Assembly: GCA_949948785.1 (NCBI GenBank)
Contig: CATLGX010000006.1
Location: forward strand, 1-53,371
Direction: 5' to 3'
Source: an uncultured Christensenella sp.
GTDB taxonomy: Bacteria; Bacillota; Clostridia; Christensenellales; Pumilibacteraceae
DNA: 53,371 nt
Position 1 is the stretch's first letter; each line of letters begins with the position of its first letter. Positions 10,525 through 35,676 of this stretch are shown in pieces. The notes beneath the pieces were generated by a model. It had not been told where the DNA came from. It made no database searches and worked only from the letters and a program-made list of their open reading frames with translations. The position numbers and the translations under genes are program-made.

Positions 10525-13008
10525 CTATTTACATTCCATCCAGTTTTTTCCGACAGATATTTCGACGTCGAGCGGCACGGACAGCGAGACGGCGTTTTCC
10601 ATTTCGGTTTTCAGAATTGTCTTGACTTCTTCGAGTTCGTCGGTTGTCGCGTCTACCACAAGCTCGTCGTGAACTTGCAGGATAAGTTTTGACTTCATGT
10701 TTTCGAGCCTATGCCCGACGTTTACCATAGCTATTTTGATAATATCGGCGGCGGTGCCTTGGAGCGGCGTGTTCATGGCAATGCGTTCTCCGAACTTGCG
10801 CATTTGATATTTTGCCGAAGTAAGCTCGGGAATTGCGCGTCGTCTTCCGAACGCCGTTTCCGCATATCCGCGGCTTTTCGCGAGTTCTATAAGTCCGTCG
10901 AGATAGTTTTTAACGGTAGGGAAGCGCTCGAAATAGCGTTTGATGTATTGGTCTGCTTTCTTTGCAGAGATATGAATATTACGGCCAAGCCCGAAATTGC
11001 TTATGCCGTAAACGATGCCGAAATTGACCGCTTTCGCGTCGCGGCGCATGGCGGGAGTAACTTCGTCGGTCGGCACGCCGAATACTTCTGCGGCGGTCGA
11101 GCGGTGAATGTCGGCGCCCGTGACAAATGCTTCCGTCATTTTGGGGTCGCCCGAAAAATGTGCGAGGAGTTTTAACTCGATTTGGCTGTAATCTGCATCG
11201 ACCAGGACGTTGCCGTCGCGCGGAACGAAAATCGAGCGCAGTATGCGTCCTTCGTCGGAACGCGTCGGGATGTTTTGTAGGTTCGGGTCGGTAGACGACA
11301 GTCGCCCCGTCGCGGTGGACATTTGGTTGAACGACGTATGAACGGTAAAATCGGAACGCAAAGCCTTTCTTATTCCGTCGATAAATGTCGATTTGATTTT
11401 AGAGTTAAATCTGTATTTGAGAATTTCGTCTACGATTTCGTACTCTTCGGCAAGCGGTTGCAAAATTTCTGCTTTTGTCGAGTACGGCGGTTTGCCGACG
11501 TACGGAATTTTAAGGTCGTCGAACAGCGCTGTCGCGAGTTGTTTGGGCGAATTGAGGTTAATGTCTTTGCCGTAAATTTCGCGTATTCGCTCTGCGCTCG
11601 CCGCTTCCAAAGAAGAAAAGTGCGCGTCTATTTCGTCGAGCTTGTTTCGGTCGACAGTGAAGCCGACGGTTTCCATATCGAACAATACGCGCAACAGCGG
11701 AAGTTCGATATCCGAATACAGCGTCAGCATATTGCGCTCGGAAAGCGCGTTTTTGCATTCGTTGCAGTCTGCAAAAAGTTCGGCGGCGTTAGTCGGCGTG
11801 AGCCGGTATTCGAGAAGATACCCCATGAGCGCAACGTCGTCGGCATCGTCGATTTCGTGAGGCGAAACCGTATGCAACAATGATTTGAGGTCGAAAGCCA
11901 ATATATGCCGCTTGAAAAGCGGTGCTATCGTGTCCACGCAAGCGTCGGCGGTAAATGCCGAAAGCAGATTATCCGTTACGGGCGCAAAGTAGTCGGTCAG
12001 TCCGTCAAACGCCAAGTGCAACCCGTCTTGCGTCATCATTACGGCGACGTTTGCGCCTGCTTTTTGCACAAGCGCGGCAAGTTCCGCTTGGCTTTCGAGT
12101 TTAACTGTTTGCGTATGCTTGTCGCGGGTGATTGCGGCAGCGTTATCGCTTTCGAAAATATCGTTGCGGCGCAATAGCGTTTTAAATTCGTATCTGCTCA
12201 TCGCGTTCCGTGCGGCGAACGGAAAAGGAAAGCGCAGTTCGCATGTTTCGAGTTCGAAGTCCATCGGAACGTCGCAGTCGATAGTGGCGAGACGATACGA
12301 CAGATATGCGTCCTCCTTACCGTTTACGAGTTTGTCATGCCTTGCTCCGTTTATGTCGTCGATATTTTTGTAAATGCCGTCGAGCGACCCGTATTTGGCA
12401 ATCAGTTCTTTTGCCGACTTGTCGCCGATGCCCGCAACGCCCGGGATATTATCCGAACTGTCTCCCGCGAGCGCCTTGAAATCTATTACGCGGTCGGACG
12501 GCACGCCGAAAATATTCGGTACTTCCGTAGGCGAAACGTCCTCGATGTCGGTAATTCCGCGCTTTGTCAATAGCACGTGCGTTGTGTCGGAAACGAGTTG
12601 AAGACTGTCTCTGTCGCTCGTAACGACGTAAGTAAAAACGCCGGAACGCTTTGCTATCGTGCCGATAACGTCGTCCGCCTCATATCCTGCCAACTCGAAA
12701 CGCTTGATTCCCAAAACGTCGAGAAGCGCTTTCATGCCGTCTATCTGCGCGGCAAGGGCGTCGGGCATGGGTTTTCGCGTAGCTTTGTATGCGTCGGACA
12801 TTTTGTGTCTGAACGTAGGCGCGTGCACGTCGAAAGCGGCGGCGATATATTTCGGCTTGTATTCTTCTATCAGTTTGGTAAGCATTACGGTAAAGCCGTA
12901 CATCGCACCGACAGGTTCGCCGCGCGACGTAACAAGCCCCGTCATGGCGTAGAACGCGCGGTTTAAGAGCGAGTTGGAATCTATAATTATAAGACTGTCT
13001 TTTTCCAT
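10525..13008 (-). CDS. polA: DNA polymerase I (start likely at internal MEKDSL, ORF listed from 13026)
   Basis: 5' nuclease domain (LLNRAFYAM...), polymerase motifs A/B/C (DYSQIELKLLAHFSGD, RRDAKAVNFGIVYGIS, LQVHDELV). Confidence 0.95.
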   Translation of the reverse strand: MEKDSLIIIDSNSLLNRAFYAMTGLVTSRGEPVGAMYGFTVMLTKLIEEYKPKYIAAAFDVHAPTFRHKMSDAYKATRKPMPDALAAQIDGMKALLDVLGIKRFELAGYEADDVIGTIAKRSGVFTYVVTSDRDSLQLVSDTTHVLLTKRGITDIEDVSPTEVPNIFGVPSDRVIDFKALAGDSSDNIPGVAGIGDKSAKELIAKYGSLDGIYKNIDDINGARHDKLVNGKEDAYLSYRLATIDCDVPMDFELETCELRFPFPFAARNAMSRYEFKTLLRRNDIFESDNAAAITRDKHTQTVKLESQAELAALVQKAGANVAVMMTQDGLHLAFDGLTDYFAPVTDNLLSAFTADACVDTIAPLFKRHILAFDLKSLLHTVSPHEIDDADDVALMGYLLEYRLTPTNAAELFADCNECKNALSERNMLTLYSDIELPLLRVLFDMETVGFTVDRNKLDEIDAHFSSLEAASAERIREIYGKDINLNSPKQLATALFDDLKIPYVGKPPYSTKAEILQPLAEEYEIVDEILKYRFNSKIKSTFIDGIRKALRSDFTVHTSFNQMSTATGRLSSTDPNLQNIPTRSDEGRILRSIFVPRDGNVLVDADYSQIELKLLAHFSGDPKMTEAFVTGADIHRSTAAEVFGVPTDEVTPAMRRDAKAVNFGIVYGISNFGLGRNIHISAKKADQYIKRYFERFPTVKNYLDGLIELAKSRGYAETAFGRRRAIPELTSAKYQMRKFGERIAMNTPLQGTAADIIKIAMVNVGHRLENMKSKLILQVHDELVVDATTDELEEVKTILKTEMENAVSLSVPLDVEISVGKNWMECK

Positions 13009-13115
13009 ACCGTAATTATACACCATTTCCGAAAAGAATACAAGGTATTTGTCCGATAAAGAAATCCGTAATTGCGGAAACTAAAAAGCAAAATAGAAAA
13101 TCACACTTCAAACGG

Positions 13116-13164: not shown

Positions 13165-13240
13165 GGGGATATAGCTCAGTTGGTAGAGCGCCTGCTTTGC
13201 AAGCAGGATGTCAGCGGTTCGAGTCCGCTTATCTCCACCA
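13165..13240 (+). tRNA. tRNA-Ala (TGC), CCA encoded
   Basis: ggggata...tatctcc-a-cca acceptor pairing; anticodon stem-loop ctgctttgcaagcag; ggttcgagtcc T-loop. Confidence 0.97.
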
Positions 13241-13271: not shown

Positions 13272-13500
13272 GTCGGGCAACGCAATGACAGGTGCAACCC
13301 GAAACGAATAAAACCGAATAAAGCAAATAAAGGAATGTAGCTCAGCTGTCGGGCAACGCAATGATATGTGCAACCCGAAATGAATAAAACCGAATAAACT
13401 CAAATAAAGGAATGTAGCTCAGCTGTCGGGCAACGCAATGATATGTGCAACCCGAAACGAATAAAACCGAATAAACTCAAATAAAGGAATGTAGCTCAGC
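13272..13500 (+). repeat. Three tandem 76-77-nt repeats, each ending with the 5' 16 nt of tRNA-Ile; the third copy runs into the intact tRNA-Ile
   Basis: gtcgggcaacgcaatgayatgtgcaacccgaaaygaataaaaccgaataaa..caaataaaggaatgtagctcagc at 13272, 13348 and 13425; tRNA head copies aggaatgtagctcagc at 13331, 13408 and 13485. Confidence 0.95.
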
Positions 13501-13561
13501 AGGTTAGAGCACCACCCTGATAAGGTGGGGGTCGGTGGTTCGAGTCCACTCATTCCTACCA
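13485..13561 (+). tRNA. tRNA-Ile (GAT), CCA encoded
   Basis: aggaatg...cattcct-a-cca acceptor pairing; anticodon loop ctgataa; ggttcgagtcc T-loop. Confidence 0.97.
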
Positions 13562-13585
13562 AACGACCCTTTTCGGGTCGTTTTT
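13562..13585 (+). terminator. Intrinsic terminator downstream of tRNA-Ile
   Basis: acgaccc-ttttc-gggtcgt followed by ttttt. Confidence 0.85.
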
Positions 13586-13672
13586 GTATGAGCGTAAATT
13601 GGCTCTGCAGTCGGGCGTACTTATTACGCAATAACCGTGAAGCGATTTATAAGTCATGGTCGGCGGTAACTC

Positions 13673-13735
13673 GCATAATGCCGCGTAAGCGGCAACCGCC
13701 GCAAGAGGCGGCGGCGCACCGCGGTGCGATTATGC
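13673..13735. other. Compact multi-hairpin palindromic element
   Basis: Outer 7-bp inverted repeat gcataat/attatgc enclosing gccgc-gtaa-gcggc, ccgcc-gcaaga-ggcgg and the perfect palindrome cgcaccgcggtgcg. Confidence 0.6.
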
Positions 13736-13748
13736 TCGTGAATGCCGC

Positions 13749-13782
13749 GCCGAAAATGCCCTTGCAAGCAAGCATTTTCGGC
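13749..13782. other. Hairpin, 11-bp stem and 12-nt loop
   Basis: gccgaaaatgc ... gcattttcggc perfect inverted repeat. Confidence 0.7.
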
Positions 13783-13792
13783 TTGCATATTA

Positions 13793-13820
13793 CGAGTCCG
13801 CTCATTCCTACCAAACGACC
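13793..13820 (+). repeat. Second copy of the tRNA-Ile 3' end plus flank (att-like direct repeat of 13541-13568)
   Basis: cgagtccgctcattcctaccaaacgacc versus cgagtccactcattcctaccaaacgacc at 13541; one mismatch in 28 nt. Confidence 0.9.
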
Positions 13821-13847
13821 AGAAAAAAGGGGGGGGGTACCGTATTC

Positions 13848-35473: not shown

Positions 35474-35479
35474 AAAGTT

Positions 35480-35676
35480 AAGTCCTGCGGTGTTCGAGAT
35501 GACGCCTAATTTATAACCTCAATTCATAAAAGGGACGGTGCGTATGCCGCGCTATGTCGGGCCTCAGTAATTTTACTTTATGTAAGCAGGGGAAGGCAAA
35601 ATGCGGCGTCAGCCGACCCACCTGCCAAAAGGCGGGTTTGAATACGGTTGATTCTGCGGCACAGGCGGGATTTTTT
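35480..35676 (+). ncRNA. ssrS: Probable 6S RNA
   Basis: About 197 nt from the promoter to a T6 run. 5' gtcctgcggtgttcg and 3' gttgattctgcggcacagg resemble conserved 6S closing-region sequences; no good ORF on this strand. Confidence 0.7.

Follow-up and report, generated by a model that had tools for sequence, protein, structure and literature searches.

A repeated tRNA-Ile 3′ end, a hairpin element, and a genus-wide family of structured tRNA-tail units

Mobile DNA classically lands at the 3′ ends of tRNA genes, with any one integrase usually restricted to one or a few of these sites; casposon-like insertion also uses tRNA ends. The tRNA-integrated elements of S. meliloti have repeats of 12-98 bp (PMC11476347), and in another described case an island is punctuated by the repeated last 20 bp of tRNA-Lys(CTT), with the tRNA at the border (PMC10872708). 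Here, we analyze a tRNA-Ile locus with a direct repeat of the tRNA 3′ end, of the kind seen in attL/attR island scars. The locus lies on a 53-kb contig, which is the whole stretch of DNA analyzed and is referred to as the window, from a metagenome-assembled genome (G000) of 1.58 Mb that is 84% complete. This genome and its relatives are taken to be gut bacteria of the genus Anaerocaecibacter (Pumilibacteraceae, Clostridia). The genus set comprised 20 genomes, and 54 other genomes of the family were also searched (74 in all).

The tail repeat and the segment between its copies

The tRNA block of the window contains tRNA-Ala(TGC) at 13165-13240 (forward strand, as are all further features of the locus), identified with ARAGORN and Rfam RF00005, and a working tRNA-Ile(GAT) gene at 13485-13561, also identified with ARAGORN and Rfam. 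The latter is followed by an intrinsic terminator, AACGACCCTTTTCGGGTCGTTTTT, recognized from its sequence at 13562-13585. Between the two genes, at 13331-13484, lie two 77-bp tandem units that each start with the 5′ head of tRNA-Ile (AGGAATGTAGCTCAG); the head repeat GGAATGTAGCTCAG is found at 13332, 13409, and 13486. These 77-bp units look like strongly decayed tRNA-Ile copies, and similar upstream copies are present in relatives. In G009 (L040), units of a similar kind, 76 bp long, lie upstream of tRNA-Ile. An earlier note on this DNA had pointed to repeated 5′ heads and to a tRNA locus remodeled on both sides. The heads exist, as the 77-bp tandem, and the tRNA-Ile locus does vary between species on both sides. 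We note that polA (10525-13026, reverse strand) lies upstream of the tRNA block and divergent from it, whereas in the tRNA-Ile loci of G006 (L046) and G008 (L053) polA lies downstream and is co-oriented with the tRNAs; an inversion of either the tRNA block or polA has therefore occurred. Elsewhere in the window, a 6S RNA was recognized at 35479-35675 (Rfam RF00013, 57.8 bits).

The first copy of the repeat, CGAGTCCACTCATTCCTACCAAACGACC (13541-13568), extends from C56 of the T-loop to the CCA end and includes 7 nt of the terminator. The second, CGAGTCCGCTCATTCCTACCAAACGACC (13793-13820), consists of another tRNA-Ile tail plus the initial 7 nt of a duplicated terminator, which breaks off there. 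The two copies are identical at 27 of 28 positions and are spaced 252 bp apart. An exact 19-nt core of the repeat has two occurrences in the 53 kb and no more; the expected number of core matches was 0.05 even when up to 3 mismatches were allowed, and none of 100 shuffled sequences had two. Across the whole genome, which is 84% complete, the core was found nowhere outside these two places. The att-like repeat of 28 bp described in the earlier note is therefore real, lies at the coordinates given there with its one mismatch, and is far beyond chance. Directly after the second copy, where the second terminator breaks off, is the stretch AGAAAAAAGGGGGGGGG (13821-13839); in a metagenome-assembled genome, such a run of nine or more G could also be a weak point of the assembly.

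The segment at 13597-13667, which follows the first terminator, aligns in order with the D-arm, the anticodon arm, and the T-stem of an extra tRNA-Ile copy in G001 (L047). The alignment includes a hairpin inserted in the anticodon loop and reaches the T-stem GGCGG, and on this basis we assign the segment to a second tRNA-Ile copy, of which it would form the 5′ part. The score against the G001 copy was 44, compared to a mean of 17.6 and a maximum of 33 in 1000 dinucleotide shuffles; against the insert-bearing second copy of G014 it was 42, with a maximum of 34 in 1000 shuffles. Aligned with the plain tRNA-Ile gene, the segment did no better than shuffles and the match was not significant, so the case for a second copy is drawn from the insert-bearing copies of other species. 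Exact or single-mismatch versions of the anticodon-loop insert are present at the tRNA-Ile loci of six species. Pairing of the T-stem is kept across the element H that interrupts it (see below): GGCGG pairs with CCGCT, as compared to GGTGG with CCACT in the working gene, and the compensatory change from T51-A63 to C51-G63 has its two bases on either side of H. At the same place in G001 there is a clean tandem duplication of tRNA-Ile including the terminator. It is the alignments with G001 and G014, the T-stem pairing across H, and the clean duplication in G001 that lead us to read the second copy as tRNA-Ile-like. The two repeats are thus probably the 3′ ends of tandem tRNA-Ile copies, of which the second has decayed and holds H in its T-loop.

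A hairpin element at T-loop-like sites

By its junctions and fold, H was placed at 13668-13793 (GGCGGT-H-GAGTCC, with the last base ambiguous). It is ∼125 bp long, hairpin-rich, and noncoding. When the interval between the repeats was compared with the genus by BLAST, matches were obtained in 16 of the 20 genomes. Among the nine best-matching loci outside the window, eight have H immediately 3′ of a tRNA gene (Met, Ser, Pro, Arg-CCG, Glu, Thr, Glu, and Arg-CCT), and at the ninth (L103) there was no tRNA in reach. Close copies of H in relatives lie mostly inside T-loop-like GGTTCG sites. Their junction is GGT-H-GCTAG (from GGTTCGCTAG), with small variations, and that of the window is GGT-H-GAGTCC (from GGTTCGAGTCC); the two bases of GGTTCG that are replaced by H are the same ones in the window and the relatives. 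The window copy also bears the signature of the family, AACTCGC...GCTCGTGAATRC-hairpin-TTGYAT inserted in GGTTCG, and scores 86.8 bits with a model of the H hairpin, R2, being itself one of the nine sequences that built this model.

Two tandem units of G014, 96-98% identical in their flanks, are distinguished by H, which is present in one and absent from the other. A partial second copy of tRNA-Arg(CCT) in G006 (L107) holds H in its T-loop, and a 25-bp tail repeat flanks H on both sides; the design is the same as in the window. Given these parallels, the replacement of the same two GGTTCG bases, and the linkage to tRNA genes at eight of nine loci, we read H as a T-loop insert. With R2, weaker relatives of the H hairpin were detected in each of the 20 genomes, and many of these do not lie near tRNAs. 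Dispersed hairpins of the form AAAATGCNNTTGCAAGCAAGCATTTT were seen away from tRNAs in G013 and others, with up to 24 weak R2 matches in G013. The fold of the 252-bp interval is 5 sd better than that of shuffled sequences, and Rfam recognized no known RNA family in the interval or in the units described below, tRNAs aside. Most likely, H is a small noncoding element aimed at the T-loop motif GGTTCG, a smaller second element beside those units.

Units with displaced tRNA tails across the genus

The H insertion sites of relatives are part of a unit whose conserved module, R1, consists of two hairpins. From 5′ to 3′, the layout is a tRNA, its terminator, usually an antisense tRNA tail, hairpins, and a sense tail of the same tRNA from position 58. 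Units are ∼190-210 bp in size, noncoding, and structured; a genome can have as many as 16 units, and tandem arrays of them also occur. With a covariance model of R1, about 130 copies were identified in 17 of the 20 genus members and none in the window's own genome. Beyond the genus, R1 was found in 1 of the 54 other family genomes, giving 18 of 74 for the family. Exact-pattern matches in other phyla scored near chance with the model, and a single match in IMG/VR was not supported. The isolate A. muris (CLA-AA-M11) also carries the unit family, and we found no account of such units in the literature.

The tails are specific to their tRNA. For 70 of the 104 R1 copies examined, a tRNA on the same strand was located upstream within the fetched DNA, at distances from CCA to R1 that cluster mostly at 126-148 nt. 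The sequence after R1 takes up the tRNA from position 58 onward and matches the tail of the tRNA in its own unit: the own tail was the strict best of 21 tails in 59 of 63 unique cases, covering 18 isoacceptors, and the mean match score was 11.9, compared to 6.0 for the highest of 200 permutations. An antisense tail scoring at least 8 was present in 43 of the 70 units, usually just 3′ of the terminator. Covariation in R1 was strong, with a score of 0.576 versus 0.170 in shuffles and 97.2% of cells paired.

The same architecture was seen with a second module (CGAGCGGCTGTGCCGCGAAGTGG) at several tRNA-Leu genes and at Thr and Pro genes, and 10 of the 13 sites of this module had an upstream tRNA in the locus. 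The window's own genome has such a locus on contig C95 (L295/L416), where tRNA-Leu(CAG) is followed by a terminator, an antisense tail, a module of the second type, and a displaced sense tail. At tRNA-Arg(CCG) of G012, G003, and G004, the terminator after the displaced tail is of type GTCAGTGGGTCTATAAGTAG or CTCCGAGCCTAAATTGAAC, and the working gene has another terminator followed by an inverted stretch. In G008, a GTCAGTGGGTCTATAAGTAG-type terminator is found on both sides of 5 kb of cargo at this tRNA gene, and in G006 a CTCCGAGCCTAAATTGAAC-type terminator lies directly 3′ of it. The distribution of terminator types indicates that, in G012, G003, and G004, insertion occurred between position 57 and the original tail with its terminator.

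Like the units, the window has a displaced sense tail of its own tRNA downstream of the terminator; neither R1 nor the second module was found at its tRNA-Ile locus. The interval could itself be a miniature unit with H as the right-hand module instead of R1, the 28-bp repeat being a tail duplicated on insertion and the tRNA-like segment a result of chance or later conversion. Its parts would then follow the order seen in about 130 genus units, and GTATGAGCG (13586-13594), a short stretch after the terminator whose pairing with the complementary CGCTCAT in the tail of the second repeat copy is predicted, would be an antisense-tail remnant, since it occupies the position of that tail in related units. 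It also fits that at L107 H abuts the displaced tail directly, without R1, and that elsewhere in this genome tRNA-Leu(CAG) is accompanied by a unit of another subfamily. Nevertheless, we consider this unlikely: across H, the repeat is preceded by a matching T-stem and by an anticodon arm with a known insert, R1 is absent from the own genome, and unit tails start at position 58 after R1, whereas H of the window splits TTCGAG, as it splits GGTTCG elsewhere.

Islands, origin of the locus, and known systems

For ten R1 copies that have no tRNA nearby, larger maps revealed the matching tRNA at a distance of 0.9-7.6 kb on the upstream side, and genes in the intervening DNA. Several of these islands carry defense genes; among the cargo are a type IIG restriction-modification system with Shedu SduA, a type IV restriction enzyme, a STAND-like NTPase, a ClpP-like protease, leucine-rich repeat proteins, and a Thg1-like protein; at tRNA-Ser, an HNH nuclease is located between two tandem units. 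Lamassu LmuB and a UvrD-like helicase with a PD-(D/E)XK domain were found at two more R1 loci in which the tRNA was not reached. Several islands end, before the unit, with the box ATTCGTTTTAGGTT-N5-TGCTCYACCA. In G010 (L248, 7729-9249) and G018 (L418), the end of a gene for a CcrB-like large serine recombinase adjoins a unit at the tRNA-Lys tail. The two proteins are 97% identical between the species, which indicates a recent move; the next feature is R1 in one of the genomes and the second module in the other, with divergence of the sequences at GTACCA. In our reading, the unit was already present when this element, an island, was inserted between it and the tRNA, which suggests that units are probably not just remnants of islands. 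A derivation of the mini units from islands by loss of cargo is weakened accordingly, as the same serine-recombinase element adjoins either R1 or the second module.

Two tyrosine recombinases were found in the genome of the window, one XerS-like and encoded beside thrS, the other XerC/D-like. The XerS-like gene beside thrS is the only tyrosine recombinase common to the genus, and no tRNA-specific tyrosine integrase common to the genus was found. A longer spacing in the PF00589 match had suggested an integron integrase, a candidate that was rejected on the NCBIfam evidence: XerS was the best match for the common recombinase, and integron-integrase models scored far below cut-offs.

These searches bear on the proposal of the earlier note that the interval is the collapsed scar of an integrative element or a minimal insert. 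The part about an insert is partly borne out, in that the interval holds a small, mobile-looking insert (H) and tRNA 3′ ends are recurrent insertion points with duplicated tails; in addition, when relatives were compared for an invariant 252-bp interval, it proved highly variable. In favor of an ordinary island, brought to the tRNA-Ile 3′ end by an integrase and since collapsed to a scar, one may cite the typical length of the repeat and the fact that islands with cargo and duplicated tails do exist at other tRNA genes in the genus. Such a scar is improbable, however, as no cargo, island gene, or integrase remnant was found in the 252 bp, which also contain the 5′ part of a second tRNA-Ile and are explained by this copy and H, and as the genome has no further repeat core and the genus no shared tRNA-specific tyrosine integrase. 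It is highly improbable that the second copy and the units are functional RNAs, such as tRNA-like decoys or regulators, kept for their fold and not mobile DNA: the covariation of R1, the compensatory T-stem change in the window copy, and the fold of the interval would agree with this, but units lie 3′ of an intrinsic terminator, their presence varies between species and tRNAs, and folded single-stranded DNA used by a recombinase would give the same covariation.

On the preferred reading, that of tandem tRNA-Ile copies, the gene would have been duplicated in tandem together with its terminator, and the second copy would have decayed and holds H in its T-loop; the locus is now probably an inert remnant. 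H and the units would be, or would once have been, nonautonomous mobile elements inserted at the T-loop or tail of tRNAs. We infer that they were placed by a recombinase acting in trans and that the tail was duplicated on insertion, which would leave the tRNA intact. The antisense tail might, as a guess, arise through snap-back copying at the terminator hairpin. More broadly, we tentatively suggest that the genus may possess an undescribed class of miniature elements that insert in many tRNA T-loops, duplicate the tRNA's own tail, and carry an antisense tail. Their ends, conserved in structure and variable in sequence, would be read as folded DNA by a trans-acting recombinase, the duplicated tails would serve as landing platforms for defense islands, and the window would represent a decayed locus with a hairpin that targets the T-loop.

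A single structural family fits at least 18 tRNA types through the matching tail, forms tandem arrays, and often adjoins anti-phage defense islands. If it is mobile, it would show how the T-loop shared by all tRNAs can be a general target without destruction of the gene, and it would help to explain the high variability of tRNA loci in the genus.

With tRNA-integrated islands and prophages, the locus and its relatives share the duplicated tRNA 3′ end and the retention of a working tRNA, and the genus has cargo islands at such sites; the genus units differ in being ∼190-210 bp long, noncoding, and structured, in occurring at no fewer than 18 tRNA types, in mostly having an antisense tail, and in lacking an integrase. 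The additive islands and tycheposons of Methylophilaceae and Prochlorococcus likewise have repeated tRNA ends with the tRNA at the border, but they are large, cargo-bearing elements, and the tycheposon has xerD, whereas the genus units are cargo-less, structured, and spread over many tRNAs, and the only such enzyme common to the genus is XerS-like. Integron attC arrays resemble the units in their tandem imperfect palindromes of conserved structure and variable sequence; the units, in contrast, have no integron integrase and no attC consensus, and their arms are tRNA tails. H, in turn, is short, noncoding, hairpin-rich, and dispersed, with weaker relatives away from tRNAs, like hairpin elements of the MITE and REP kind, but its close copies are found only at T-loop-like sites near tRNA genes. 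Compared to known repeats of tRNA ends, the units are distinguished by their small size, their fold, their antisense tail, and the number of tRNA types involved.
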